A stretch of 43,534 nucleotides of DNA, taken from contig JAFZKH010000009.1 in NCBI GenBank assembly GCA_017553685.1, forward strand, positions 100,945 through 144,478. Direction: 5' to 3'. The DNA is from Bacilli bacterium (GTDB taxonomy: Bacteria > Bacillota_I > Bacilli_A > RF39 > UBA660). Both the position numbers and the translations under genes were made by a program. The notes under the pieces are model-generated. The model had not been told where the DNA came from. It worked only from the letters and a program-made list of their open reading frames with translations, and did no database searches. Numbering within the stretch: the stretch's first letter is position 1; each line of letters begins with the position of its first letter. Positions 11,290-42,994 of this stretch are shown here, one piece after another.

Positions 11290-11322
11290 AAAAAAATATA
11301 GTTCATTGAACTATATTTTTAT
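11290..11322. terminator. Terminator after the VirD4-like gene
   Basis: A 14-bp stem AAAAATATAGTTCA / TGAACTATATTTTT around one central base has a T-run on the minus strand. The VirD4 stop codon (11319-11321) lies in the arm. This is the distal end of the secretion locus. Confidence 0.88.
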
Positions 11323-13556
11323 TCTTCATCAAAGAAATCATCAAAGAAATCATCATATTCTTCTTTTTCTTCTTTAACCTCTGTATTCTTAGATTCTTCA
11401 TTTTCTTTCATAGTAAAGTTTTCTAAGTCAACCATATTACTGTGAACAACTTCTGAAGTTTTAGGACCACCATCTTCAATATGAGTAGCTTCTTTAACTT
11501 CTAATTCTTCACTAGGTTTTTCAGGAGTTAAATCAAGAGGTTCTGGAGTAAATGGAGTTTCCGCTTTACTTTCAGATTCCTTCTTTGCTTTCTCTTCTGC
11601 TTCTTCCTTTTCTAATGCTGCTATTTGAGCATCTATCTTCTTAATAATATCATCTAATTCAGATTCAGATGGCATATTACCACCAGCAAATGGATTAGGA
11701 ACTGGACTAGGTTCAGGTCTTTGATTTAGGAATGGATTTTGATTCATTCCTCCACCCATAAATGGATTAGATCCTCCAAATGGATTACCACCTGGAACTC
11801 CTCCTCCAAAATCTAAATTAGGTCTATTTTCTTGTTTCTTCTTTTGAACATATTCTTTTAAATTGAATACTGCTATATCAGATAAATCTCTTTCTGGATA
11901 TATAACATTCTTACCAAAGTAATCTTCACCTTTACCAAATCCAAAGTCATTATTAAATCCTTGTCTTATAGTACCTTTATAAGGTGAACATCTTTGTTTA
12001 ATAAGTATAAATGTTCCAAAAGGTAATGTTTGAAGTTCTGTAACTGTTATTAAAGGTCTTGTTTCTTCTTTCTTATCTTTACCTACTCTAATAATCTTAT
12101 CACCACATAATTTAGAGATTTCTTCTAAGGCTTGTAATTCTCCAGTAAGTAAATAAATTAAGTTACCACAGTTACCTCTAATAGTTTCAGCTTCTTCTTT
12201 ACCATATGTTTTATTAATTTGTGCAAAGTTTTGAATGATAAATGTGAATCTAATTCTTCTAGAACGAGCAGCTGTAACCATTGTAGTAATATCTTTAAAT
12301 TTAGGCATGTTAGCAAACTCATCTACTATGAAGTTTGTTCTAACAGGAAGTGCTCCACCATGTTTATGAGCTACTGTAATTAATGATTCATAACATTGTT
12401 TAATAAAGATTGTAGCAAGTGAGTGATATGTTGTTTTTTCATCTTGTATTATTAAGAATACTGCTGTTGGTTTTTCACCAATTGATGACATATCAAAGTC
12501 ACTCTTAGAAAGCATTTCTGATAAGTTTTTAGTAACCGCTAATGTTTTAACTTTTTGTTGTAAAACTGTTAATACTCCAGCTTTAGTATCTTGTGCAGTA
12601 TTAACAACAGCAGCCATATTAACTGCTATAGGTGATGTAGGATCTTGCATATTAAAGTATTCTTGCATATATGTTTTAGGTCCTATTCTTTCTTCACCTT
12701 GATTAATCATTAAGTTAACTGAATTAATATTAATAGTATCTTTAGGAGCATCTTTGAATAATGCTAATCCAATACCTGTTAAATAGTCTGCAGCAGCATT
12801 TTGCCAGAATGGATCATCACCTTGTCCATCTACAACTATATTAGTAGCTAAGTCATTTAATAACTCGTTAGCTTTATCAAAATTTCCTTCTTGATGGTAT
12901 GAATATGGTAAATCATATGGATTCCAACAATTACCTTTTTGAGGTTCACGGAAATTAAGTATTATTATTTGATAACCTAATTCTCTAAGTTTACCAGAAT
13001 GGTGTTCATATATTTCACCTTTAGGGTCAGTAATAATCATTGATTCTCTACCCTTCATTAAGTGAACCATAGCAGGATCTACGAATCCAGATGTTTTACC
13101 TGAACCAGTAGCACCAATAACTAAAGTATGACTTTCACCATTATCTACATATGCTGCATCTTTTCCATATACTAGTGGAACACCTCCACCTTCAGATTTA
13201 GATACAGAATAAGGAACTTCTAAAACTCCTCTTTGAGCAATAATATCTTTATCTTTAAACCATCTAGAATATCCATTAGTTTTCTTTTCATCTGAATATC
13301 CAAAACCTTTTTCCATGTCAAAGAAATATGAAGAAGTAGTAGCAAATAAAGCTGCTATAATAGCTATCCAAACACCAAATGTAATTAATATATTATTAGG
13401 ATAAAAAGCTATTATGAAATTTATACCAGCCGGACTACCATATTCCATTATAGATTTAACATTTGAAATAACAATTGCAATTAAAAAAAGTAAAAAGAAA
13501 CATAACGTAGCAAATATAATAACGTCTTTCTTTTCAGCAACAAATTTTAGTCTCAT
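11319..13556 (-). CDS. VirD4/TraG-type T4SS coupling ATPase
   Basis: The 745-residue protein has two N-terminal membrane helices (about 12-31 and 52-75). A cytoplasmic coupling-protein ATPase follows: Walker A GATGSGKT at 148-155, MIITDPKGE at 173-181, and Walker B FIVDEFANMPKF ending at 420. Coupling proteins bring substrates to the secretion channel and dock on VirB4. The last 180 residues are disordered: a Gly/Pro/Asn stretch with four NPF motifs, a Glu/Lys-rich part, and an acidic aromatic end DDFFDDFFDEE. A hairpin separates it from the upstream gene, so it may be expressed separately; a TGATATAAT at 13582-13590 could serve as its -10. The Shine-Dalgarno is CGGAGATG. Confidence 0.9.
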   Translation of the reverse strand: MRLKFVAEKKDVIIFATLCFFLLFLIAIVISNVKSIMEYGSPAGINFIIAFYPNNILITFGVWIAIIAALFATTSSYFFDMEKGFGYSDEKKTNGYSRWFKDKDIIAQRGVLEVPYSVSKSEGGGVPLVYGKDAAYVDNGESHTLVIGATGSGKTSGFVDPAMVHLMKGRESMIITDPKGEIYEHHSGKLRELGYQIIILNFREPQKGNCWNPYDLPYSYHQEGNFDKANELLNDLATNIVVDGQGDDPFWQNAAADYLTGIGLALFKDAPKDTININSVNLMINQGEERIGPKTYMQEYFNMQDPTSPIAVNMAAVVNTAQDTKAGVLTVLQQKVKTLAVTKNLSEMLSKSDFDMSSIGEKPTAVFLIIQDEKTTYHSLATIFIKQCYESLITVAHKHGGALPVRTNFIVDEFANMPKFKDITTMVTAARSRRIRFTFIIQNFAQINKTYGKEEAETIRGNCGNLIYLLTGELQALEEISKLCGDKIIRVGKDKKEETRPLITVTELQTLPFGTFILIKQRCSPYKGTIRQGFNNDFGFGKGEDYFGKNVIYPERDLSDIAVFNLKEYVQKKKQENRPNLDFGGGVPGGNPFGGSNPFMGGGMNQNPFLNQRPEPSPVPNPFAGGNMPSESELDDIIKKIDAQIAALEKEEAEEKAKKESESKAETPFTPEPLDLTPEKPSEELEVKEATHIEDGGPKTSEVVHSNMVDLENFTMKENEESKNTEVKEEKEEYDDFFDDFFDEE

Positions 13557-13581
13557 ATTTCATCTCCGTATAACTAAATAC

Positions 13582-13590
13582 ATTATATCA
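13582..13590 (-). promoter_or_regulatory. Possible extended -10 before the VirD4-like gene
   Basis: TGATATAAT lies on the minus strand immediately after the upstream terminator and 26 bases before the start codon. No convincing -35 is present, so this is a candidate only. Confidence 0.4.
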
Positions 13591-13592
13591 AA

Positions 13593-13619
13593 AAAAAGGT
13601 ATTTTATAAATACCTTTTT
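13593..13619 (-). terminator. Terminator after the 1304-aa scaffold gene
   Basis: A perfect 12-bp stem AAAAAGGTATTT / AAATACCTTTTT with loop TAT is followed by a T-run on the minus strand, seven bases past the stop of the large gene. Confidence 0.85.
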
Positions 13620-13625
13620 ATTATT

Positions 13626-16600
13626 CTAGTATGAAAATAAACTTGATTTAGAAGTTAAGAATCTCATAGAACTATTATTAGTTTTAGATATAGGTCCATA
13701 TTGTTTTTCATAGTCATATCTATATACAGCAGTATAAGATAATGTCTTATCAAATGCAGAGATTAATACTTCTGTACCATCAGCATCTCCAGAATCAGCA
13801 TTTTCTTTAGAAGGATCTGCCCATACTTGTTTTTCTTCACCTATATATATAATAGCAATCTTCTTAGAATCCTTTTCATAAACAAGGATATCTCCTTTTT
13901 TAATCTCAGCTTCTTTATATTCAGATTTAGTAAAATAATGCTCAGTTAGTACTTTTTCCATCTCATCAATAGTAAATACACTTTCTTGACCATCCATAAC
14001 ACCTGAATTAACAACACTATAATATATGAATGATGCATTATCTACATCTGGATTCATAGATCTCTTAGTTACATCATTAGTATTACCAATAGCATCATTA
14101 TTAGCTATTTCAATAGCTTTATTAGCTATAGCACCAGTCTTATTACCAACATACATTGAATCACATAATTTAACTCCACTTGCAGTTGATTGTGAAGATG
14201 ATGAACCACCTTTAAGATCAAATGTACCACTATGAATATTACCGTTATTAGTAAACATTAATACAGGGTTATTTGAAGATTCCCACTCAATACCCCAACC
14301 ACTTGTTGTTACATTTCCTGTTGGGTGACCTAATTCAACTTCAAACTCGATTACATCAGTAGCTCCAGAAAGAGGATGACCCCATCCAGTAGAATCAACA
14401 CCTTCACCTTTGGTATCCATAACAACCAATGGAGCTATACTACCATCTTTAAACTTAGCATTTAATACATCTCCTGGTAATCCAATATCAGGTACAACTG
14501 CGGATAAATACCTATCAACACCATCTACAGTGATATAAGCAATACCATTTTTAAATCTACTACCTTGAGAAACCCATACTTCATATGTTGCTCTTTGTCC
14601 CTGACCTTCTCCCCAAGTTCTTTCATCACTTGATTTGCATCCATAATACCAACCTTTTCCACCATAACATGTAAATGAATACTCATTAGCTTGTGTAAAG
14701 GTTTGAGGTATAGTAATAGTAGTAGCTCCAGGATAATCTCCTACATGAGCAGTACACTTAACAATCATATTAGTTGGATCTATTGCTGTTCCATCTAGTT
14801 TTCTAAATTCTAGATATAATGACGGAACACTTAATCCCTCAGATTCAGCAGCAGTACCAATAGTACCTACTTCTTGTCTATCAGTTACTGTATCTCCAGT
14901 TTTAAGTTTTACACTACTCTTACTTAATCCTTTATATATAATACTAAAGTCATATTGACTCTTTACAGCCGTTCCATCCATAGTATATTTATACTCTATT
15001 TCTATACATCCACCTGTACATTCCATAGTACTATCCGCAGAAGAAGCTTTAACAGTACCACCATCCATAACAGCATATACTTTATCGCCTTCTACGTTAC
15101 CAGTTGAATCTTTATTTAATTCAATACCATTATGTAATTTACCATCAGTAGTATATCCATATCCATTTTTATCAAGAAATTCAATACAATTAGAAGTATT
15201 AATATCAACTGGATCACTTAATGAACTAGCTAATTTTCTATCAATAGCTCCTATACATAATTGATTATAATCTTCAGAATCATCTTCATCTTGAATAGTA
15301 AATAATCTATCAAAATAATCTTTATATGCGAATATTTCATCTATAATATTATCTATTGATTCTTCTATAACTTTACCATCTTTATCATAACTTAAATATG
15401 GTTTAAAATCTGGATTATTTGGAATAAATTTTTCTTTTAAATATTTTCTATAGTTTTCTTCACTATATTTATATGAATAATATGTAATCGTAATTTCATC
15501 TAATACATTATTAGTAAATATATTTGAAGGCAGTTTTATACTTTGAACTGACATACATCCAAGGAATAAACAATTTATCAGAATTTTTGCATCTAATACA
15601 CTTTTTTGAGAAATAATAGGTATAGGAATACCCGTTAATAATGTTATAGCTGCACTTTTACCAACATCCGATAAAACATCTTTCATCATTTGTATAACAG
15701 CATCTTGATAATCTCCACCATAAGTAACTATCCATTCAGATAATGACATTTCATGCTGAGTATAACTACTTGCAGTTCCTAAAAATGTTGAATCAAACAT
15801 AGCATTTGCTAATAATTTTAATCTATATACTTTACCTATAGTGTACCAATAACCCGTTTCAGGATCATATGTACCTCCAGCTTCTTTTTCAACTTTTTCT
15901 ATTTCTGATTGTATTAATTGAGAAAAATTAGCCATATATGCATCTGTATCAGTGTCATCATCAAGACTACCAGCAGCCTCAATACCGAGAGATTGCATTC
16001 CGTAATTCTCATTTACACTTAAACTAGAATAATCTGTTTGATAGCCACTTTTCATCTCAGAATAAAATGTAGTAGCAAGTAATAGTGTGGAATCTAATTC
16101 TTCCCCATAAATACTACCAAGTCTATCTAGTTCTGCATAGAATGTTTCTTTTGAATCAGCAAAATTACCATTTGCATATAAGTTAGCAATCTTTTCAGCA
16201 GTATTAGCCACATTTAATGCAATTTTTTCAGCATTCATTAATGCATCTAACATAGGTGCAAATATCATATAAATACCTAAAGCCAAAAATATTATAGGTA
16301 ATAATAAACTAATAAGGCCCATTATTAAACCTGCAGCAGCAGATTTTAATGCACTCTCTCCTAGTTTATCTAATAACTTATCTGTGTTTTCTTTACCAAT
16401 TAATTTATCTAAAACTTTAACAGCTGTAGCACCTGCTTTAGAATATGCATTTGTATTTTCTGAAGCAGCTAATGCAGCTCTTATACCAGGAGCACCTGAT
16501 AATCCTTTAGGACCTTGTTTTAAGGCATCTTTTGTATTCTTAGCTATTTCAGCTTTATCAGCTGCAGGATTATCTTTTGCAGCATCCTTAGCTAAATCTT

Positions 16601-17540
16601 TAGCACCCTCTTTTGCTGCATCCTTTGCTGCATCTTTAGCAACATCTTTTGCTGCATCTTTTGCAGTGTCTTTAGCAGCATCCTTTGCTGCATCTTTTGC
16701 AGTATCTTTAGCAGCATCCTTTGCTGCATCTTTTGCATTATCACCTGCATTCTTAGCAGCATCCTTGCCATCAGGTTTTCCATCTTTTTTATCTTTGGTT
16801 TCATCTTTTTTATCAGATTTACCACCATTTTTATCTGAACCTTCTTCAGGTTTAGTTTGTTCATTAGATGAACCACTATCAGATGATGAACTCTTAGATT
16901 CTTCACCTGTAGATTTATCATCAGTAGCACTTTCTTTACTTGAAGTATCCTCAGATGATGTATCTGAACCACTATCTTTTGTATCACTAGTTTCAGTAGA
17001 ATCACTAGTATCACTAGAAGTATCTGAAGTAGGTTCTGAAACTGTTTCATTTGATGAGTCTTCAGTTGCTGATTCACTATCATCAGAACTACTTTCAGTA
17101 GGTTCACTTTCCTCACTTGTAGATTCAGAAGGCTCTGATGATTCAGTAGATTCTTCAGCAGATTCACTTGATGTTTCTTCACTTGGAGTATTATCCTCTA
17201 CAGGATTTTCATCTACTGAATTATCTCCATTATCTAATGATTCTTCTTCATTACCAGATTCATCATCAAGTATTTCCTCAGTATCATCATCATTAATAGG
17301 TTCTTCTTCACCTACTTCATCATCACCAAGTTCTTCAATACCTTCATCATCTGGTATTTCTTCTACATCATCATTTTGATTTATATTTTCTTCTTTTTTA
17401 TCACTACTAAAAGATGGTTCTGACACTGAACCATCATCTAAATCTAGGTCAGAAAGATCTAATTCTATCTCTCCTTCAATGACACCTGAAACAGGTATAC
17501 CATCTTTTCCTATATTCTCTTTTTTATCGTCCAATGCCAT
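13626..17540 (-). CDS. Large T4SS-associated membrane protein with degenerate M23-like and NlpC/P60-like domains
   Basis: The 1304-residue protein starts at the ATG at 17540, which follows AAAGGTGG. Residues about 25-250 are Asp/Glu/Ser/Thr-rich. Residues 260-325 are a repeat of A-A-K-D units. One hydrophobic segment lies near 402-432. Residues 795-930 resemble an M23 LytM domain, but the first site is HNGIE (Asp to Glu) and the HxH site is SLYLE, with both His lost. Residues 1000-1070 form a beta-rich module (ITVDGVDRYLSAVVPD). The C-terminus looks like NlpC/P60, with DNASF in place of DCSGF and IAIIYIG in place of HVGIYIG, so Cys and His are lost. By topology the acidic part is probably cytoplasmic and the rest outside. 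It takes the place of the VirB1-type hydrolase of Gram-positive systems. No Pfam search was possible; the domain calls are by eye. Confidence 0.7.
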   Translation of the reverse strand: MALDDKKENIGKDGIPVSGVIEGEIELDLSDLDLDDGSVSEPSFSSDKKEENINQNDDVEEIPDDEGIEELGDDEVGEEEPINDDDTEEILDDESGNEEESLDNGDNSVDENPVEDNTPSEETSSESAEESTESSEPSESTSEESEPTESSSDDSESATEDSSNETVSEPTSDTSSDTSDSTETSDTKDSGSDTSSEDTSSKESATDDKSTGEESKSSSSDSGSSNEQTKPEEGSDKNGGKSDKKDETKDKKDGKPDGKDAAKNAGDNAKDAAKDAAKDTAKDAAKDAAKDTAKDAAKDVAKDAAKDAAKEGAKDLAKDAAKDNPAADKAEIAKNTKDALKQGPKGLSGAPGIRAALAASENTNAYSKAGATAVKVLDKLIGKENTDKLLDKLGESALKSAAAGLIMGLISLLLPIIFLALGIYMIFAPMLDALMNAEKIALNVANTAEKIANLYANGNFADSKETFYAELDRLGSIYGEELDSTLLLATTFYSEMKSGYQTDYSSLSVNENYGMQSLGIEAAGSLDDDTDTDAYMANFSQLIQSEIEKVEKEAGGTYDPETGYWYTIGKVYRLKLLANAMFDSTFLGTASSYTQHEMSLSEWIVTYGGDYQDAVIQMMKDVLSDVGKSAAITLLTGIPIPIISQKSVLDAKILINCLFLGCMSVQSIKLPSNIFTNNVLDEITITYYSYKYSEENYRKYLKEKFIPNNPDFKPYLSYDKDGKVIEESIDNIIDEIFAYKDYFDRLFTIQDEDDSEDYNQLCIGAIDRKLASSLSDPVDINTSNCIEFLDKNGYGYTTDGKLHNGIELNKDSTGNVEGDKVYAVMDGGTVKASSADSTMECTGGCIEIEYKYTMDGTAVKSQYDFSIIYKGLSKSSVKLKTGDTVTDRQEVGTIGTAAESEGLSVPSLYLEFRKLDGTAIDPTNMIVKCTAHVGDYPGATTITIPQTFTQANEYSFTCYGGKGWYYGCKSSDERTWGEGQGQRATYEVWVSQGSRFKNGIAYITVDGVDRYLSAVVPDIGLPGDVLNAKFKDGSIAPLVVMDTKGEGVDSTGWGHPLSGATDVIEFEVELGHPTGNVTTSGWGIEWESSNNPVLMFTNNGNIHSGTFDLKGGSSSSQSTASGVKLCDSMYVGNKTGAIANKAIEIANNDAIGNTNDVTKRSMNPDVDNASFIYYSVVNSGVMDGQESVFTIDEMEKVLTEHYFTKSEYKEAEIKKGDILVYEKDSKKIAIIYIGEEKQVWADPSKENADSGDADGTEVLISAFDKTLSYTAVYRYDYEKQYGPISKTNNSSMRFLTSKSSLFSY
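16583..16760 (-). repeat. Tandem AAKD-coding minisatellite
   Basis: The minus strand encodes about 15 imperfect 4-residue units (AAKD, TAKD, VAKD, LAKD), that is, a 12-bp period with many units identical at DNA level on the motif GCAGCAAAAGAT. It sits between the acidic N-terminus and the membrane segment of the 1304-aa protein. The period makes it a candidate for length variation between strains. Confidence 0.85.
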
Positions 17541-17569
17541 CACCACCTTTCATTAATTATTAATTAAAA

Positions 17570-19360
17570 TTATAGACCGCCTTTTGTACCAAATGAATCA
17601 AGTTCTGCATCAGTAACAACTACACTAACTTGTAGTCTCTTACTACCACAGATAAATAATGCTTCACCTTGGTTATAACCTTTAATACTTTCAATCTCAT
17701 TTTCGTTGATATCAAGTAATTGAGCAAGGTCTTCAGCAGCTTGTTTTCTAAGTCCCATTATTAAATAATAAGACGAGTTATCAAATATTGCTTTACCTTG
17801 AGTAATTACATTAGGATCAGTAAAGTCACTTGGTTGTTGTGTAATTACTATAGTACCAGTATTATATTTTCTTGCTCTTCTTTGAACATTTGCTAAGAAG
17901 TCTGCTCCTAAAGTATTATTTTGACCAAGTAACATATGTGCTTCATCAACCATTAATACTGTATTAATATTTGGATCAAGACATAATCCCCAAGCATGTT
18001 TTAATATGTTAAAGAATAAAGCATTCTTAATATTTACTTCAGCATTCATAAGTTCTCTTATGTTGAAAACTATGAAGTTTGATTTTGGTTCAATGGTAGT
18101 ATGACCATTGAAGAAATATTCAAGTCCACCAGAAACTAGTGGTCTTATTTTCATTTCAAGTCTTTCCATTATACTTCTTTCAGCTGTAGCTTCACCATAA
18201 GAAAGTATTTTACCTCTAACAGTTTCATATACATCTGAGAATGTAGGAAAGTCTTCTTTTTTAAATGTAGTAAAATCTGTATTAATATTAACATTAAATC
18301 TTTGATATGTTTCCATAACAACTTCATTAAATAAGTTTAATACATCTTCTTCTATAGATGGATCATAGTATCTCATGAAAGCCTTTAATGTTTGAAGAGT
18401 ATTAGTTAGAATTGAATATCCAATACCTCTTCCAGTTTCATCATCTATTCCATCTGCAACAACTTCTAGTGGGTTAATCATACCATATTCGCCGCCTAAT
18501 CCTAGGTTAATGAAATCTCCACCAAATTGTCTAGTCATATCTTCTAATTCACCTTCAGGGTCAATAGCAACTATCTTATAATTATTTCTTATATGAGATC
18601 TAAGTAATAATTTAGCTGCAGTAGATTTACCTGAACCAGAAGATCCTAACATAATCATGTTAGCATTATTTCTATTATGTTCTTTTCTTTGTTGATATAA
18701 GAATTGGTTAAATAATACTACACCACCTGAGAAATCTACACCAAATAAACAAGATAATCCAGGATCTTTAATACTATCAAAGATAAATGGATACATTGCT
18801 GCAAGTGTAGGAGATGGTATTGGAGTACCAATTCTATCTTCAACATCTTGTTTTTCAAATATTGGTAGCATTGATTTAAATATTTTTTCTTGTTCAAATC
18901 TAAGTGGAACTGCTCTCATAAGCATTCCTTCCATTAGATTCTTAACTTGAACTTTTTTACTTTCAAGTTCTTCTTTAGTATCTGCTACTATCATTACATG
19001 TAATTGAAAATTAAATACTTTTGATTGGTCTCTAGTAATTTCAGAAATGAAATTATTAAGAGAATCATAGTCATTTCTTAATTTTTCTTGCATTGTTACA
19101 TCACGTTCTTTTTGATATCTTTCTTGAACATCAACTAATTGCTTATTAAGCATTTTAGCAAGAACTGAGAATGCAATAGGAATATGTTTAGCAACAATTC
19201 TAACACCAGATAAACCAGTAGATAGATTTGCTAAATATCCAGGTTGAATAGCACCAGGATAAGATACAACTGTAAGTATAGTTGAATACTTATCACTAAT
19301 GTAGAAATCACTAGTATTAAAAGTAATGCCCTTAGGAGCTAATTCTTTCTTTATACTCAT
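17570..19360 (-). CDS. VirB4-type T4SS ATPase, main part
   Basis: VirB4 is the conserved ATPase at the cytoplasmic base of type IV secretion systems. The 596-residue protein has Walker A GSSGSGKS at 239-246, AIDPEGELEDM shortly after, and Walker B VLMVDEAHMLLG from 468, followed by RRARKYNTGTIVITQQPSD, the usual sensor region. The first 200 residues are the C-terminal part of the usual VirB4 N-domain (DTKEELESKKVQVKNLMEG). The ATG overlaps the TGA of the 181-aa ORF (ATGA), and the two together give about 777 residues, the length of one typical VirB4. The gene precedes the large scaffold gene by about 30 bases. Confidence 0.92.
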   Translation of the reverse strand: MSIKKELAPKGITFNTSDFYISDKYSTILTVVSYPGAIQPGYLANLSTGLSGVRIVAKHIPIAFSVLAKMLNKQLVDVQERYQKERDVTMQEKLRNDYDSLNNFISEITRDQSKVFNFQLHVMIVADTKEELESKKVQVKNLMEGMLMRAVPLRFEQEKIFKSMLPIFEKQDVEDRIGTPIPSPTLAAMYPFIFDSIKDPGLSCLFGVDFSGGVVLFNQFLYQQRKEHNRNNANMIMLGSSGSGKSTAAKLLLRSHIRNNYKIVAIDPEGELEDMTRQFGGDFINLGLGGEYGMINPLEVVADGIDDETGRGIGYSILTNTLQTLKAFMRYYDPSIEEDVLNLFNEVVMETYQRFNVNINTDFTTFKKEDFPTFSDVYETVRGKILSYGEATAERSIMERLEMKIRPLVSGGLEYFFNGHTTIEPKSNFIVFNIRELMNAEVNIKNALFFNILKHAWGLCLDPNINTVLMVDEAHMLLGQNNTLGADFLANVQRRARKYNTGTIVITQQPSDFTDPNVITQGKAIFDNSSYYLIMGLRKQAAEDLAQLLDINENEIESIKGYNQGEALFICGSKRLQVSVVVTDAELDSFGTKGGL

Positions 19361-19902
19361 TCTGTAATCACACTCCCACTCTTAAATGTAACCCCACCGT
19401 TTAAGAAATTATCTAATATTGATCTTAAATCTTCATTAGAAGTTTGAGTAGCAATTAATCCAGTACCAGCCATGTTGTTAATTAATCCTCTAACTTTTTT
19501 AGTTAAAGCATCACTATTAGTATCTTTAACTAGAATGTAGTATTCTGTATCAACAACATTGTTCATTGAGAACATTTCTGCCTTTTCAATGTCATCAGCT
19601 AAAAGTTTTCTTCTAGCAGGACTTTGTTCATTAGACATTTGTAGTTCTAGTTGTGATACATATAGATTAATATCAACTGGTCTATCTGCTACAACTAACC
19701 AAAATTCATATTCAATTAAATTATAAAATTCTTTTAAAGAATTAATAATTCTATTTTGTTCTCCTTCAGTTAATATGAATATATTTCTAGGACTAATCTT
19801 AACTCCTGAAACAATACTCTTATCATCTAGAAAAATCATTCCATTATTAATTTCTTTAACTTGAATCCAGTTTTCAGTTAATGAACTATCCTTTGTATTC
19901 AT
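19357..19902 (-). CDS. Separate N-terminal segment of VirB4-like protein
   Basis: The 181-residue cytoplasmic protein has no membrane helix. Its layout (ISPRNIFILTEGEQNRIINS, then EFWLVVADRPVDINLYVSQL and TEYYILVKD) looks like the first beta-alpha part of a VirB4 N-domain. It lies directly upstream of the ATPase part with a 4-base ATGA overlap. There is no sign of decay: the end is a clean in-frame TGA with coupled restart. Either the family is natively split or a frameshift separated one ORF. It overlaps the PrgI-like gene upstream by 17 bases. The assignment rests on position and pattern. Confidence 0.65.
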   Translation of the reverse strand: MNTKDSSLTENWIQVKEINNGMIFLDDKSIVSGVKISPRNIFILTEGEQNRIINSLKEFYNLIEYEFWLVVADRPVDINLYVSQLELQMSNEQSPARRKLLADDIEKAEMFSMNNVVDTEYYILVKDTNSDALTKKVRGLINNMAGTGLIATQTSNEDLRSILDNFLNGGVTFKSGSVITE

Positions 19903-20191
19903 CTAGATAACACCATCCTTCCCACTTATAATTTCTTCTATGATAGAAGAAGTTTATTCCTTCCTTTATTACAGTCCTAATATTATGATAATTAGGAACA
20001 GGAACACATAATCCACAACATATTAGTCCAGGAGCTAAACACATTAGAGCTCCAAACATACCATGTGGTTGCACTATCAGTAAAGCAAGTAATGTTACTG
20101 CCACACCAGATATTGCAATAATCAAATCTATTGGTAAAAATATATTAAATATTAATTTACCATTATTTGTATTTGCAGGTATTATATACAT
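19886..20191 (-). CDS. PrgI-like T4SS membrane protein (VirB3 position)
   Basis: The 101-residue protein has two closely spaced membrane helices (about 17-38 and 43-63). Its basic C-terminus ends in YHRRNYKWEGWCYLDEYKG, which resembles the Y-K-W-x-G end of the PrgI family of Gram-positive conjugation systems. PrgI proteins are placed before VirB4 and are thought to take the VirB3 role next to the ATPase; this gene has exactly that position. AGGAGTG precedes the start. The end overlaps the next gene by 17 bases. Confidence 0.7.
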   Translation of the reverse strand: MYIIPANTNNGKLIFNIFLPIDLIIAISGVAVTLLALLIVQPHGMFGALMCLAPGLICCGLCVPVPNYHNIRTVIKEGINFFYHRRNYKWEGWCYLDEYKG

Positions 20192-20209
20192 CTAATATCA
20201 CACTCCTTT

Positions 20210-22768
20210 TTATTCATTTTGATCCATTTTATTGTTAGTATCTTTAGTTGCTTTCTTAATATCACCTAAGGCATCATTAATATTTTCAATGCCAGTATTC
20301 ATCTTACCTAATGTCTCATTAGTAGTTCTTAAGTTACTATTAATTTTTTCACCACTAGTTCTAACTTGATTAGCAACATTCTTGCTACCAGTTTGAACAG
20401 AAGTATTTATTTCATCTAATTTTTGTTCTAATCTGCTTGTATCAATATCAGCTTGAACTGTTCCACCGTTTCCAACTTGTGTAGTACCAGTTTGTGAAGG
20501 CTCAGTAGTTCCATTTGCTTGATTTGATGAAGATTGTTGAGTTGATGAATTTTGTGATATTGATTCATTATTAGTAGGCGAATAAATTATAGCACTATTA
20601 ATATTTTGAATGTCTTCTCTTCTTTGTCTCTCCTCAAGTGCAGAAATAGACTTATCAATAGTATCCGATACCGCTTTAAATGCTGCTTTTACGCTTTCAT
20701 CGCCAATGTTTTCTTCAACAGTTTTAACTTTACTTTGTTGATCATTATAATCTTTTTCTGCTTTTTCCTTATCTTTTTTAAGAGTATCTACATCCATATC
20801 CAAAGCACCACTATTAGAAGCATTTTCATGTGCTTTAAGTGTCATATCTTTCATTTGACCAAACGTACTAGCATCTATTGTTCCAGTTCCTTTTATATCT
20901 CCTATTTCTTTAAGAACAGCATTCATGGAATCATCAGTACCTAGCTTACCAGCATGTAATAAATTTTGAGCTCTAGTTATAGCACCACGTTGTTCTTGAT
21001 TATCTGTGCTTTCAAGCATTTTTTTAAACATAGAATCTACATCATTAAATTTGTCTAATTTATCTTTAGCAGCACTATAATTACTTCTCTCAGAATTAAG
21101 TTTATTTAAGGCATCTCTTTGCATTTCGGTAAAGCCACCCATATTTTTGACAATATCATTATTCATTCCTTTTATATTACTTAAATTCTTTCCTCTAACA
21201 GTTTCACCATAATCAATCTTGCTCTTATCATCAGCTTTCAACTTTATTGCACTTCCAGAAGCATTTTCAATTTTAGCAGTAATTTTAGCTTTAGCTTTCT
21301 TCTCTTGTGCTTGCTTATCTTCATATCTCTGAGTTTTATAATTTTCATCAAGAGCCTTATTAACTGCACCTTTAGCATCTTTTCCTTGAGATTTATATGC
21401 AGCACCAACTACTTTTCCAACTTTAGTAGCAGAAGTTAAAGCACCTTTTGAAACACTTCCAACTTTTCCTGCAACATTTCTTACTTTGTTAAATTTTTCA
21501 TTGCTATTAAGTTTATCAGAGACACTATCCTTTAATCCTGATATTTTATGGCCTAAGCCCTTATCTCCTAATTTATTATCAAGTTTTCTAAATCCTCTTC
21601 CTACGCCTCTTCCTGCAGCAGCTAATAATTGTGGAGATGCTTTAGCAATACCACCTAAGCCTGCCCAGGCATTTTGAGCCATCTTACCAATACCAGCCAT
21701 TTCACCAAGTTTATCTTTGATACCACCCATTTTAATGTTAGCACCAAATAACTTACCAAATAAATCAGGTAATTCTTTAATCATTCTAAGTAAACCAATT
21801 ATTAAGAATACTTTAAACCAGAATGAAACACTATCGTTATTAAATATACTGTTAGGATCATTCATTAATTTGAATCCTAATACCATAAAACATAGTCCTG
21901 CAATTCTTATAAGAATACTTGTAAATTCTTGAACTGTCATCTTAGCCCATTTAGATAAATGATCTGTTCCTGCAGCTATATATGAAACAATTACTACTGG
22001 AGCAAGTATTTCAAGTAATCCAAGTTTTACTAACCTTAATCCTGCATCCATACATAAAATAATTATTTGATATAAAATAAATATTCCTACTGCTACTAAA
22101 GCAAGTCCATTAATTTGATATATTGGTTTTCCTTTTTCCCATACTTTATCAACATTAATACTATTTAAATTTTCATACTTAGGATCTCCTCCTAAGAAAG
22201 TAACAAATGGTTCATAATCAGCATTAGTATCTAATAATTTTTGTGCATAGTTACAATTAGTATCTCCATCACATAAAGCAGATTCTGTTAATGCTACTCC
22301 ATTTGGATCTATTGGTATTATGAAACTTGTAATAATTGTAGAAGTTAATTCTCCACCAGCACCTTCAACACCAGATTCAGAATCACTATCTACATAACCA
22401 AGCATTAATTTTTCTACTACTCCACCAACAATTATTTCAGCTTGTAAATAATACACAAAATTAAATATTGCTGGAACAGCTACTATTAAAAGTAAACCAA
22501 TAATAGTTCTCTTTAATACTCCTGTTACTCCTTTTTTAGCATCAGTTAATAAATCAGGATTAACAATTGCCTCTATTAACTTAACTGAAAAAGCAAATAA
22601 TATTACAACGCTTACTAAAATATAAATTCTATTACTTACTTCCTGAATTGTATCTGCTCTAAATAATCTAGTTGTAGCAAGTCCATAAAATAATGAATAT
22701 ATTCCACTAACAGCACTAAATATCCAGTTTGAAAGTCCTAAAAAAATCATATTTAAAAGTTTGCCCAT
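20210..22768 (-). CDS. VirB6/TrbL-like T4SS channel protein with long hydrophilic tail
   Basis: The 852-residue protein begins with a membrane part: hydrophobic segments near residues 5-30, 47-66, 85-110, 215-240, 250-275, 280-300 and 315-335, with an extracytoplasmic loop at about 115-210. This pattern and the block LRLVKLGLLEILAPVVIVS match VirB6/TrbL polytopic proteins of the inner-membrane channel. The last 500 residues are hydrophilic: first Gly/Ala/Lys-rich (AAGRGVGRGFRKLDNK), then helical and Lys/Asp-rich with likely coiled coils, then Ser/Gln/Asn-rich, and finally a helical end. It is the first gene of the main secretion operon, with its own promoter and AGGAGG. Confidence 0.75.
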   Translation of the reverse strand: MGKLLNMIFLGLSNWIFSAVSGIYSLFYGLATTRLFRADTIQEVSNRIYILVSVVILFAFSVKLIEAIVNPDLLTDAKKGVTGVLKRTIIGLLLIVAVPAIFNFVYYLQAEIIVGGVVEKLMLGYVDSDSESGVEGAGGELTSTIITSFIIPIDPNGVALTESALCDGDTNCNYAQKLLDTNADYEPFVTFLGGDPKYENLNSINVDKVWEKGKPIYQINGLALVAVGIFILYQIIILCMDAGLRLVKLGLLEILAPVVIVSYIAAGTDHLSKWAKMTVQEFTSILIRIAGLCFMVLGFKLMNDPNSIFNNDSVSFWFKVFLIIGLLRMIKELPDLFGKLFGANIKMGGIKDKLGEMAGIGKMAQNAWAGLGGIAKASPQLLAAAGRGVGRGFRKLDNKLGDKGLGHKISGLKDSVSDKLNSNEKFNKVRNVAGKVGSVSKGALTSATKVGKVVGAAYKSQGKDAKGAVNKALDENYKTQRYEDKQAQEKKAKAKITAKIENASGSAIKLKADDKSKIDYGETVRGKNLSNIKGMNNDIVKNMGGFTEMQRDALNKLNSERSNYSAAKDKLDKFNDVDSMFKKMLESTDNQEQRGAITRAQNLLHAGKLGTDDSMNAVLKEIGDIKGTGTIDASTFGQMKDMTLKAHENASNSGALDMDVDTLKKDKEKAEKDYNDQQSKVKTVEENIGDESVKAAFKAVSDTIDKSISALEERQRREDIQNINSAIIYSPTNNESISQNSSTQQSSSNQANGTTEPSQTGTTQVGNGGTVQADIDTSRLEQKLDEINTSVQTGSKNVANQVRTSGEKINSNLRTTNETLGKMNTGIENINDALGDIKKATKDTNNKMDQNE

Positions 22769-22815
22769 ATATACATCCTCCTAACCCTAATTTATACTAT
22801 ACTATCATAAATTTA

Positions 22816-22844
22816 ATTATATCATTTGTTAATAGATTTTTCAA
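22816..22844 (-). promoter_or_regulatory. Promoter of the VirB6-PrgI-VirB4-scaffold unit
   Basis: The minus strand has TTGAAA (22839-22844), a 17-base spacer, and TATAAT (22816-22821) with TGA before it (extended -10). It lies between the terminator of the 224-aa gene and the VirB6-like start. Confidence 0.75.
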
Positions 22845-22852
22845 TAAAACAT

Positions 22853-22886
22853 AAAAAAAACATAATGTTTTTATTATGTTTTTTTA
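22853..22886 (-). terminator. Terminator after the 224-aa cysteine-rich gene
   Basis: On the minus strand the stem AAACATAAT / ATTATGTTT with a 6-base loop is followed by a T-run. The stop codon of the 224-aa gene (22884-22886) lies at its edge. Confidence 0.75.
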
Positions 22887-23558
22887 TTCTTTTCCTGTAA
22901 CAACACATTTAAGTAAACTAGAATCTTTAATTGCACTATTTTTAGATAGTGTATCTACTAAAATACTAATAAGAATTGGTAATACCATTAAGATAAATAA
23001 TGCTATTATTCTTCTAGTTAATTTTGATCTAAATTTACTCATTTTCTTAGTATCTCCACTCATAATAGATGCTACTAAATCAAACGTTGCAAATAATATT
23101 GTTAATATAGGTGCCATTATAGTAGCAGTCTTATAAATAATATGAAATGGTTTTACATTACTACATGTTACATTTCCACTTTTCTTCTCACTAAAATCAT
23201 AGAAATCAGGTGTACCATTAAATCCACTATGAGTTATTGTTCTACAATAATCATTCTTACATTGTTTATATGTAACACTTAAATTAGAACTTTTACAACT
23301 TTCATAATCCCAATCTGTTTTCTCAAATCCACATCCAAGTGTTTTATTTGTCCAAACAGTAGTATTATACATTGGATGAACTCCTGGTAAAAATGTATAT
23401 CTATAGCAATAATATGATCCAGCATCACCTGTTTCACATGCTTTTATTGCTTCTTTTTTAGATGATTTATCTACTTTTTCAGAAAAATCCTCTGCTTTAA
23501 CAGTTAATGGAAAAAGTACTAATAGACATGTAATTATTAATAATATATACTTCTTCAT
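22884..23558 (-). CDS. Secreted/membrane cysteine-rich pilin-like protein
   Basis: The 224-residue protein starts with a signal peptide (MKKYILLIITCLLVLFPLTVKA). An extracytoplasmic domain with seven Cys follows (residues about 24-135), then two membrane helices joined by the basic loop SGDTKKMSKFRSKLTRR, then LLKC near the end. The loop and the following hydrophobic helix with its LP match those of the 125-aa and 418-aa neighbours, so the three share one hairpin module. A positive cytoplasmic loop between two helices, with both ends outside, is the VirB2/TrbC pilin topology. Start signal GGAGATG. It follows the 418-aa gene by 20 bases and shares its transcript. Confidence 0.65.
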   Translation of the reverse strand: MKKYILLIITCLLVLFPLTVKAEDFSEKVDKSSKKEAIKACETGDAGSYYCYRYTFLPGVHPMYNTTVWTNKTLGCGFEKTDWDYESCKSSNLSVTYKQCKNDYCRTITHSGFNGTPDFYDFSEKKSGNVTCSNVKPFHIIYKTATIMAPILTILFATFDLVASIMSGDTKKMSKFRSKLTRRIIALFILMVLPILISILVDTLSKNSAIKDSSLLKCVVTGKE

Positions 23559-23578
23559 TTAATTACATCTCCAGCAAA

Positions 23579-24835
23579 CTATTTATTCTTATCTTTTATT
23601 ATTAGAATAGCATTTTCTGCAAAATCATCATAGCATGCAGTTCTTGCAGCCTCTGTAGAAGCAGTATCAGTCTTTCCTACTATACCAGCATCATAACAAT
23701 TAATACTAGATTCCCAGTATGTATTCATGCATAATTCTTTACAATTAGTAATATTTTTTCCGTGGCATTGAGTAGTACAAGAATAATTAATGTATTTTTT
23801 CTCTTTACTTTGGTCATGGACAGAATTGACATATCCACTACCTTTATAATCATCATCAGTACGAGAATAAGTATATCTATTGTTCTTCCAACAAACTAAC
23901 CAGTCCGCATTAGACGAGAAATTGTTAACAATTGTAGAAACTAACCAAGGAACTAAGAATATTGCAGCTGCTGAAATAAACCTTTGAATAATTGGCTTTC
24001 TCATTTCAACAATTTTCTTTTCGTCTCCAGCAATCATTGACTTAAATAAATCTATTGATGCCCAAATAATTAATATTATTGGTGCAGTTATTTGAATAAT
24101 TTTAATTACTAAAGATGTGTAATATACTATTTCACCAAAGCCAAAACAGTTCTTAACAGTAATTTTTGAAATATAATCTAAGTCTTCAGTTATAGATCCT
24201 TTTGTACCATTTTTACCGGCACCATAAGAATAATTAACATCTTTATTAGAATTTTCTTTTAACTTGCAAAAGTTTTCAGAATCAATTGAAGTTTCACAAA
24301 AAACATTTCCTTTATATGTTGTTTCACATAATTTATTACCACAAGTAGTAAATGTGTCACAATTTACATTTGTAGCCATACAATTACTATATGTATTATT
24401 ATATATTTGTTGTTCAGGAGATCCTCCGTTTGTCCCAGCAAAACAGCCTGCTATTGCTTTACAAGCAGAATCCATTGCAGCTTCGTGTTTATTCTTAGTT
24501 TCATCACCTGTTGCTTGTCCAATAGTTTTACCCCATGTTTGTTTTTCCATAAGATTTAATAAGCCTGCTTTATAGCATTCATCACCCGCACCATTTTGCT
24601 TAACTTTTGTACAATAACAATCCTTATCTATTTGTTTACCAAGTCCAGTAGCAGTATATTTACAAGCCGCTTTATTTTCCTTATAAATTACCTCACAAAC
24701 ATAGTTTTTCATACTTTCAAAATATTGTGATGGAAACATTGAATCTTGATAAGTACAAGTATCAGCTTTAACACCATATCCAAACGATAAAATAACTACT
24801 AATAAAGCAATTAAAAATAATATTTTTTTCTTCAT
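23579..24835 (-). CDS. Large cysteine-rich protein with pilin-like two-helix module
   Basis: The ATG at 24835 follows GAAGGTG and opens a clear signal peptide (MKKKILFLIALLVVILSFGYGVKA); an upstream in-frame start would add eight unlikely residues. The mature part has 22 Cys, fourteen of them in the roughly 190-residue domain before the membrane part. The module IIQITAPIILIIWASIDL, SMIAGDEKKIVEMRKPIIQR and AIFLVPWLVS is nearly identical to the 125-aa protein, including the C-terminal NADW and C-W-K. A second Cys-rich stretch with six Cys follows. No enzyme motif is visible. A surface-exposed T4SS component or tip subunit is an inference. It has its own promoter. Confidence 0.65.
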   Translation of the reverse strand: MKKKILFLIALLVVILSFGYGVKADTCTYQDSMFPSQYFESMKNYVCEVIYKENKAACKYTATGLGKQIDKDCYCTKVKQNGAGDECYKAGLLNLMEKQTWGKTIGQATGDETKNKHEAAMDSACKAIAGCFAGTNGGSPEQQIYNNTYSNCMATNVNCDTFTTCGNKLCETTYKGNVFCETSIDSENFCKLKENSNKDVNYSYGAGKNGTKGSITEDLDYISKITVKNCFGFGEIVYYTSLVIKIIQITAPIILIIWASIDLFKSMIAGDEKKIVEMRKPIIQRFISAAAIFLVPWLVSTIVNNFSSNADWLVCWKNNRYTYSRTDDDYKGSGYVNSVHDQSKEKKYINYSCTTQCHGKNITNCKELCMNTYWESSINCYDAGIVGKTDTASTEAARTACYDDFAENAILIIKDKNK

Positions 24836-24860
24836 AAATACACCTTCTATCATACACATA

Positions 24861-24890
24861 ATTATATCATTTTATAAATAAAAAAATCAA
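24861..24890 (-). promoter_or_regulatory. Promoter of the cysteine-rich gene pair
   Basis: The minus strand has TTGATT (24885-24890), an 18-base spacer, and TATAAT (24861-24866) with TGA before it. The -35 lies inside the 3' arm of the preceding terminator. Confidence 0.6.
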
Positions 24891-24908
24891 CTTAATAAGT
24901 TGATTTTA
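24878..24908 (-). terminator. Terminator after the 125-aa pilin-like gene
   Basis: On the minus strand, AAAATCAACTTA and TAAGTTGATTTT form a strong stem followed by a T-run, so the pilin-like gene is monocistronic or mostly so. Confidence 0.85.
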
Positions 24909-24917
24909 TATTTTATA

Positions 24918-25295
24918 TTAGTTCCAAATATCATCAAAAGTATCGTCAAATGAAATTGGACCAGCTTTCCAAGCAGCTTTCCAACAAGTTTTCCAATCTG
25001 CATTTGCATCATCTGAAGCAAATCCGATTACTAAACTTACTAACCATGGTAATAAGAATACTAATACTGCAGAAAGAAGTCTTTGAATAAATGGTTTTCT
25101 AGCTGCAGAAATTTTCTTTTCATCTCCAGATATAATTGATCTTAATAAGTCAATTGATCCCCAAATAATTAATGCAATAGGAACAATGATTTGAATAACT
25201 TTAACGATGTAAACACCATAATAAACTAATGCAGATACACCAGCACAAGGACCAGTTCCTTCACCAATTCTGTCTAAGAAATTAATAAATTCCAT
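24918..25295 (-). CDS. VirB2/TrbC-like T4SS pilin candidate
   Basis: The 125-residue protein has no cleavable signal peptide. A short N-terminus with one Cys (GPCAG) leads into a first helix (about 28-55), the basic loop SGDEKKISAARKPFIQR, and a second helix ending LLPWLVSLVIGFAS; then come NADWKTCWK and an acidic aromatic tail (SFDDTFDDIWN). Two helices with a positive cytoplasmic loop is the VirB2/TrbC layout, also seen in the T4SS pilin families of Gram-positives. The Cys before helix 1 and after helix 2 are both outside and could pair. A consensus promoter and AAGGAGG suggest high expression, as expected for a major subunit. The terminator follows closely. Confidence 0.7.
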   Translation of the reverse strand: MEFINFLDRIGEGTGPCAGVSALVYYGVYIVKVIQIIVPIALIIWGSIDLLRSIISGDEKKISAARKPFIQRLLSAVLVFLLPWLVSLVIGFASDDANADWKTCWKAAWKAGPISFDDTFDDIWN

Positions 25296-42286: not shown

Positions 42287-42994
42287 CTACATCCTGTTAT
42301 TCTTTTTATTCTTAATATATACTACTACAATTACAATAATTATTGCTAGTACTGCTGCAACAATAAATAAATATTCATATCCAATACTAAATGCTTTATC
42401 ACCAAATTTAATAGCAGCACTATTTTTAGGTCTATTACCATCAAATTCAATCATTATATTCTTATATTCATCAGTATCTGCTTTAACATACCATGTATAT
42501 TTATTATTAACAACTTTATCAGCATTATGATCACTAACTTCAAATGGTACTTCTATTACTACTTCTATTTCATCATATACATATCTATTTGATGCTTTAG
42601 TATTTATTAAACCAAATTGATCAAATTCTATTCTTATATGATTCTTATCTTTACAAACTATTTTTTCTTCAAAAATATCAGTTTTAAAATTCTTTGAATA
42701 TTCTTCAATACTACTATAACTATTATTAACAGTAGCTGAAGTAGTACTATCAGCAGATATAATTGAGTAATTATCATCACCCATATAACTTGTTTTATAT
42801 ATCTTATATAAATAACTAACAGATTGACTTATATCAAGATTAGTTCTTGATTTCATTCTATTAGTATTTTCAGTAGCAGTTACCTTCTCGTTAACTGATA
42901 AATCTTTATTAATTTGTAACTCGTAGTTAACTTTACAACCAGAAATCATTATAACAAAAAATAATATTATTAATACTCTTTTTATATACTTCAT
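42287..42994 (-). CDS. Lipoprotein with C-terminal membrane helix (LppM-like)
   Basis: The 235-residue protein has a lipoprotein signal peptide with lipobox MISGC (Cys20). A beta-rich extracellular part follows (YELQINKDLSVNEKVTATEN, and IEVVIEVPFEVSDHNADKV), then a C-terminal helix near 208-230 with a basic cytoplasmic end KNKKNNRM. This layout resembles LppM-type proteins, named with low confidence. It starts the operon with cdaA-cdaR, only eight bases before cdaA, which suggests a link to c-di-AMP or wall sensing. The Shine-Dalgarno is GGAGA. Confidence 0.65.
   Translation of the reverse strand: MKYIKRVLIILFFVIMISGCKVNYELQINKDLSVNEKVTATENTNRMKSRTNLDISQSVSYLYKIYKTSYMGDDNYSIISADSTTSATVNNSYSSIEEYSKNFKTDIFEEKIVCKDKNHIRIEFDQFGLINTKASNRYVYDEIEVVIEVPFEVSDHNADKVVNNKYTWYVKADTDEYKNIMIEFDGNRPKNSAAIKFGDKAFSIGYEYLFIVAAVLAIIIVIVVVYIKNKKNNRM

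Follow-up and report, generated by a model that had tools for sequence, protein, structure and literature searches.

Whether Gram-positive type IV secretion systems (T4SSs) have any role beyond DNA transfer is described as a long-standing open question (PMC12857230). The conjugation systems of the MPF_FATA class in these bacteria (pCF10, pGO1 and CD1115-type) combine VirB4, VirD4, VirB6, PrgI and a wall hydrolase with a relaxase, and Gram-positive T4SSs are said universally to lack VirB11 (PMC12857230). The T4SSs of Patescibacteria (CPR), such as Ca. Southlakia epibionticum, are chromosomal, derived from MPF_FATA and mostly relaxase-less (PMC12102498), and in one species the system is essential for epibiotic growth (PMC12102498, PMC12857230). 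Here, we describe a T4SS locus without a relaxase in a 43,534-nt stretch of DNA (the window) from an uncultured bacterium of the order RF39 (GenBank assembly GCA_017553685.1, our genome G000: 0.95 Mb, 9 contigs, 95% complete). The window spans positions 100945-144478 of contig C9 (strand +). No member of RF39, a widespread order of gut Bacilli, has been cultured; the genomes are reduced and auxotrophies numerous (PMC6784871, PMC9606305). The RF39 literature that we examined does not mention a T4SS.

All genes of the locus lie on the minus strand in a block of 14 kb and are transcribed in the order of three pilin-like proteins, a VirB6-like and a PrgI-like protein, the N-terminal part of VirB4, the ATPase part of VirB4, a wall protein and VirD4. 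Apart from the division of VirB4 into two genes, this is the gene set named in a preliminary description of the window, and profile matches, position and homology bear it out. Several features expected of MPF_FATA are present: a VirB4 of the monoderm class, a VirD4 coupling protein, VirB6, and VirB3/PrgI (the latter by position and weak profile matches). The Patescibacteria T4SS appears to be the closest functional analogue: besides its chromosomal, MPF_FATA-derived and mostly relaxase-less character, it has a separate gene for the VirB4 N-terminal part (TrsD), PrgI, VirB6 and several divergent VirB2-like pilins, and its hosts, although of another phylum, are likewise reduced and auxotrophic. 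VirD4, however, is always in the locus in RF39, whereas in Patescibacteria it is mostly remote, and in S. epibionticum non-essential (PMC12102498). A conserved VirD4 tail and a linked Tad operon are RF39 features that have not been described for Patescibacteria T4SSs.

Our favoured explanation, to which we give a probability of roughly 55%, is that the locus is a vertically inherited chromosomal T4SS of MPF_FATA type in RF39 Bacilli, uncoupled from conjugation and repurposed as a contact-dependent exporter. Hundreds of uncultured gut bacteria with small genomes share this T4SS as an inherited part of the chromosome. A core secretion machine of nearly all RF39 would give a concrete lead on their lifestyle and partners, and the RF39 systems form a clear family for addressing a role other than DNA transfer, with the VirD4 tail as a handle for finding the substrate or adaptor.

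Distribution and descent of the T4SS

Of the 88 family genomes searched, about 70 contain the core VirB4, in a single copy, with 61-98% identity and an ATPase frame of ~600 aa. The system is family-wide, and not species-level as first proposed. VirB4 proteins of other families, or second copies, were at most about 30% identical, and in a sample of 392 Bacillota genomes the family VirB4s scored above 1060 bits and all others 395 or less. In GTDB, at least 563 contigs were found by scanning to encode relatives, and the best 80 were kept. The gene order (pilins, VirB6, PrgI, the two VirB4 genes, wall genes, VirD4) was constant in about 95 loci, the exception being a locus with a displaced VirB6 (L121), and of 95 loci encoding the ATPase part, 94 have the VirB4 N-terminal part as a gene of its own.

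The VirB4 tree agrees with the RpoB tree (patristic r 0.80, a value that 5000 permutations never reached; the trees have 20 of 31 splits in common, compared with a mean of 0.2 after shuffling), from which we infer that the T4SS was inherited vertically from the family ancestor. It has been lost several times since: genomes without the core VirB4 are mostly scattered on the RpoB tree. Some of them are incomplete, and some absences may be assembly gaps. Named records with the same VirB4 are metagenome-assembled genomes of uncultured Bacilli, Erysipelotrichaceae and Tenericutes, including Candidatus Coprosoma intestinipullorum, and where a source is given it is mostly animal gut. Since Coprosoma is placed in the order RF39 by GTDB R95 (PMC8035907), the family most likely corresponds to this order of Bacilli.

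The nearest plasmids by VirB4 are from Bacillota and Mycoplasmatota, and the closest plasmid VirB4 is 29% identical. T4SS loci with a split VirB4, ~30% identical, were also seen in other Bacilli families, on plasmid CP074574.1 (G136) and in G092 (L180-L182). These loci have a VirB11/CpaF-type ATPase on the same stretch, followed on CP074574.1 by small pilin-like genes.

Relation to conjugative elements

Neither a relaxase, an integrase nor VirB11 was found among the genes of the window, and no pair of direct repeats brackets the block, in line with what had been noted before. Extending the relaxase search to the rest of the genome gave a mixed result. There is no MOB_P or MOB_T relaxase in the whole genome (MOB_Q and other classes were not searched); there is, however, a MOB_V relaxase at C9:57643-58125, 54 kb from the T4SS and adjoining a large serine recombinase. 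Together they make up a small putative mobilizable element outside the window (C9:57013-60609). Similar MOB_V/serine-recombinase pairs in G005, G006 and G010 are integrated in differing surroundings, and 14 of the 25 family genomes searched have MOB_V matches. The MOB_V relaxase belongs to this small element, which is unrelated to the T4SS block.

True integrative and conjugative elements (ICEs) do occur in the family. Separate ICE-like loci in G014, G036 and G062 have an unsplit VirB4, and a gene of ~480 aa separates VirD4 from the M23 gene; in G036 this gene overlaps a weak relaxase-profile match. The best VirB4 and VirB6 profile matches of the block are to the T4SS of mycoplasma-type ICEs (VirB4 Mbov_0397, and Mbov_0396), and its VirD4 matches the CD1115 type. 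Such homology, and the presence of ICEs in the family, are what could be said for a recently integrated or decaying conjugative element. ICEs are mobile, and the block differs from those of its own family in its split VirB4 and in its VirD4 tail; its ATPase frames are intact and under strong purifying selection, and its gene order is constant. An ICE would be expected to have a relaxase with the T4SS, an integrase with att repeats and a patchy, horizontal distribution, none of which was found here. The block is not an ICE, and vertical descent together with the absence of bracketing repeats rules out an ICE remnant too; we regard a recent or decaying element as very improbable. Presence in most relatives, joint VirB4 and RpoB descent and the lack of any tie to a relaxase instead agree with the fixed, non-mobile surface machine suggested in the preliminary description.

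The VirD4 tail

VirD4 ends in an acidic-aromatic tail (YDDFFDDFFDEE, 11322..11357, minus strand) with the motif FFDDFF. Among 78 complete family VirD4s, 77 have the motif in their final 25 residues and all 78 have the relaxed form [FY][FY]DDFF, behind a poorly conserved linker. It was absent from the family's ICE VirD4s examined, one of which ends at a contig edge. In the window's genome it occurs once, at VirD4, and a search of viral contigs gave no match. We discarded the idea of a signal common to other proteins, since every translated in-frame occurrence in the family was VirD4, the remainder being short frames. In other coupling proteins such tails are docking sites: the last residues of F TraD (710-717, ending in Phe) bind TraM (PMC7555446), and the tails of R388 TrwB and Legionella DotL recruit the relaxosome or adaptors (PMC12857230). 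By likeness to these, the RF39 tail suggests recruitment of a dedicated cytosolic partner. The conserved FFDDFF tail appears to be new to the literature.

Neighbourhood and linked Tad operon

The preliminary description proposed to look for the block between the same neighbours in related genomes. The block itself recurs in most relatives, but trmL adjoins it within the genus only (in those loci of the genus whose flank was covered and matched). Elsewhere in the family, rhodanese-like, DedA-like, RmuC-like and RNase R-like genes (named by sequence reading) recur on the downstream side, and a conserved Tad operon on the upstream side. Because one locus of the window's genus (L056) keeps the DedA-like and RmuC-like neighbours, the arrangement in the window probably arose through rearrangement within the genus. 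The location of a Tad operon directly upstream of the T4SS in most other genera appears not to have been reported before.

Like the Tad/Flp (type IVc) pilus, this operon encodes a CpaB/RcpC protein (PF16976, 5e-8; TIGR03177, 1e-11) and an ATPase with VirB11 (TIGR02788, 4e-33) as its best curated match and TadA (3e-29) as the next. TadB-, TadC- and TadE-like proteins are assigned by position, and the operon also encodes an unassigned protein of ~330 aa. Outside the window's genus, 67 of 76 family genomes have the ATPase; within it, all 12 genomes lack it. In 27 genomes the ATPase and VirB4 genes are on one contig, and in 26 of these they are 8.5-13 kb apart. Outside the genus, 60 genomes have both, 3 VirB4 alone, 7 the ATPase alone and 6 neither (Fisher p 5e-4, uncorrected for phylogeny). 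The lack of VirB11 noted in the preliminary description holds for the window; most other RF39 genera, unlike the known Gram-positive systems, have a VirB11/TadA-type ATPase in the T4SS locus. When the window's genome was searched with family profiles, none of the core Tad genes turned up (a frame of 263 aa scored 0.002 against the TadE-like profiles); with no relocated copy there, we take the operon as lost in this genus. No T2SSE-family ATPase scored above cut-off in the genus, so that no motor of the Tad, type IV pilus or ComGA kind can be recognised; ComEC is retained.

In G041 (L048:2162-9647), giant Cys-rich predicted surface proteins of 1242 and 988 aa are encoded upstream of the Tad operon. 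The window also contains parA/parB. We make no claim that the block lies close to the replication origin, as the Patescibacteria T4SS does: no DnaA signature was found in the contig, and the sign of its GC skew does not clearly change.

Possible functions

A fixed machine without a relaxase suggests use in touching or acting on other cells rather than in spreading DNA. In the mechanism that we propose, the membrane channel would consist of the two VirB4 polypeptides, VirB3/PrgI and VirB6; VirB2-like pilin hairpins, some with Cys-rich or peptidase-like ectodomains, would cross the cell wall and extend beyond it together with the wall protein; and VirD4 would bind a cytosolic substrate or adaptor at its FFDDFF tail and so feed the channel. 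Attachment would probably be given in most genera by the adjacently encoded Tad pilus, lost in the window's genus. By analogy with Patescibacteria, the system may export protein or nucleoprotein on cell contact. Several points weigh against this reading: the homology behind the PrgI, VirB6 and pilin identities is weak or indirect; the T4SS is missing from several family genomes, so it is not strictly essential family-wide; and DNA could still be the cargo, given the retained ComEC and the mobilizable MOB_V element.

Contact-dependent export is the most likely function, and two DNA-related ones are live, if doubtful, rivals. The T4SS could draw DNA through the wall for ComEC, as Helicobacter ComB does, or import the DNA of neighbours like archaeal Ced/Ted. 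The window's genus keeps ComEC and has the T4SS as its only recognised appendage once T2SSE-family ATPases above cut-off are found missing, and Ced, Ted and ComB are indeed relaxase-less T4SS relatives that serve import (PMC12102498, PMC12857230). ComB, however, has no VirD4 (PMC12857230), whereas the RF39 locus always encodes it, with a conserved putative docking tail; other genera retain Tad/type IV pilus-type ATPases alongside the T4SS, and ComEC is also found in family genomes without the T4SS (G012, G034, G040). We think it no less doubtful that the locus is a resident conjugation machine, moving DNA with relaxases that small MOB_V elements provide in trans, or passing on DNA of the chromosome. 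The frequency of MOB_V matches in the family fits such a role, as does the window's genome, where a MOB_V gene adjoins one for a serine recombinase and the VirB4 of the block is the only one found. Yet the T4SS is also present in relatives with no MOB_V or MOB_P match (e.g. G001, G015, G016 and G018), MOB_V elements need not depend on it, and vertical fixation, constant gene content and Tad linkage are unexpected of a machine maintained by its passengers.

A more far-reaching reading, which we put forward tentatively, is a composite of Tad pilus and T4SS ancestral to RF39, with a VirB11/TadA motor, a tail-docked VirD4 partner and peptidase-armed pilin hairpins, for epibiotic or antagonistic contact. 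It would be a second, independent origin, in Bacilli, of a lifestyle machine like that of Patescibacteria.

Genes of the block

Curated matches are strong for VirB4 and VirD4, moderate for VirB6, and weak or indirect for PrgI and the pilins. The VirD4 coupling ATPase (11319..13556, minus strand, like all genes of the block) matches T4SS-DNA_transf (1.3e-56) and conju_CD1115 (306 bits, cut-off 250). The VirB4 ATPase part (17570..19360, 596 aa, Walker A GSSGSGKST) matches positions 294-891 of NF045975 (1e-106) and has a solved homologue, 4ag5 (1.5e-63). The N-terminal part (19357..19902), in a TrsD-like arrangement, matches positions 99-276 of the same profile (1.2e-15), and the two genes overlap by 4 bases. 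The VirB6/TrbL-like channel protein (20210..22768), with a long variable C-terminal part, matches NF045848 (5.6e-15) and NF045889 (4e-11). The putative PrgI/VirB3-like membrane protein (19886..20191) has no library match; its position is kept in 93 loci, and its family profile weakly matches PrgI-type genes of ICEs (3e-6 to 1e-11). No VirB8 homologue was recognised in the block and Pfam gave nothing; in other genera, proteins with one transmembrane segment occur at that position.

The first gene of the block (24918..25295, 125 aa) encodes a candidate VirB2-like pilin hairpin (T4SS_pilin PF18895, E 0.0016, below cut-off) with invariant C17, G46, D49 and R72 in a family alignment of 73 rows. Its model is a helical hairpin (pLDDT 78) without a PDB match, a fold for which structure search returned nothing informative. 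It is followed by a pilin-like protein of 426 aa with a Cys-rich ectodomain (23579..24859), whose hairpin is homologous to those of the neighbouring pilins, and by one of 224 aa, also with an ectodomain (22884..23558; T4SS_pilin E 0.006, weak). A 166-nt repeat at 23940/25039 connects two of the pilin genes.

The protein in the VirB1 position (13626..17546), predicted to span the wall, has a degenerate M23 domain (Peptidase_M23, 28.0 bits against a cut-off of 28.7) without the HxGxD and HxH metal-site motifs, and its gene contains a 12-nt tandem array. A 331-aa plus-strand open reading frame within this gene was rejected on direct reading as low-complexity antisense. The interval between the VirB4 ATPase gene and VirD4 varies by genus, with SpoIID, M23, or glucosaminidase and CHAP domains (Pfam; L043, L045, L049, L066, L125, L126); in the same loci a C39-like domain was weakly matched and a lysozyme-like one judged by eye. 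Directly downstream of VirD4, G008 (L037:3410-15001) encodes a protein with Listeria-Bacteroides repeats that is at least 3864 aa long, and a G003 homologue starts at the same place.

Between the window's genome and its sister G010, dN/dS was low in the ATPases (VirB4 0.06, VirD4 ATPase 0.03), against 0.69 for residues 1-400 of the wall protein and 0.54 for the VirB6 C-terminal part. In the 426-aa pilin it was 0.03 in the hairpin and 0.46 in the ectodomain. The same contrast was seen in a second species pair (G003 and G008). The faster change thus falls in parts likely to face outwards. Because dS is raised in the divergent wall, VirB6 and pilin parts (0.6-1.2, against 0.2-0.3 in the ATPase genes), exchange of divergent alleles is suggested.

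Parts outside the block

The 14-kb block is real, and the system extends beyond it. A displaced lipoprotein in the window (42287..42994, minus strand), likely accessory, matches a profile of T4SS-locus lipoproteins from 52 loci (8e-40), and its model (pLDDT 85) resembles LppM (2nc8, E 1e-6). Profile searches revealed four further pilin-hairpin proteins elsewhere in the genome, two or three of them with peptidase-like domains: at C9:10776-12500 (Peptidase_C39_2, 1.9e-7), at C9:7868-10687 (NlpC/P60-like C-terminus, from motifs alone), on C2 near 59.6-60.9 kb (a weak C39_2 match of 2e-4, below cut-off) and on C6 near 117.4-118.3 kb (profile match). In the satellite loci on C9 and C2, the hairpin proteins with C39-like or NlpC-like C-termini are followed by a membrane-anchored protein of ~260 aa (C9:7085-7864 and C2 near 61 kb), homologous to a gene that many other genera carry immediately upstream of VirD4. 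The C2 locus also includes a second T4SS-family lipoprotein (near 62.5-63.2 kb). As the wall protein lacks the M23 metal-site motifs, the pilin-fused enzymes may supply wall cleavage, a suggestion that comes from their predicted domains. Elsewhere in the window, a class B RNase P RNA is encoded on the minus strand (1978-2317).

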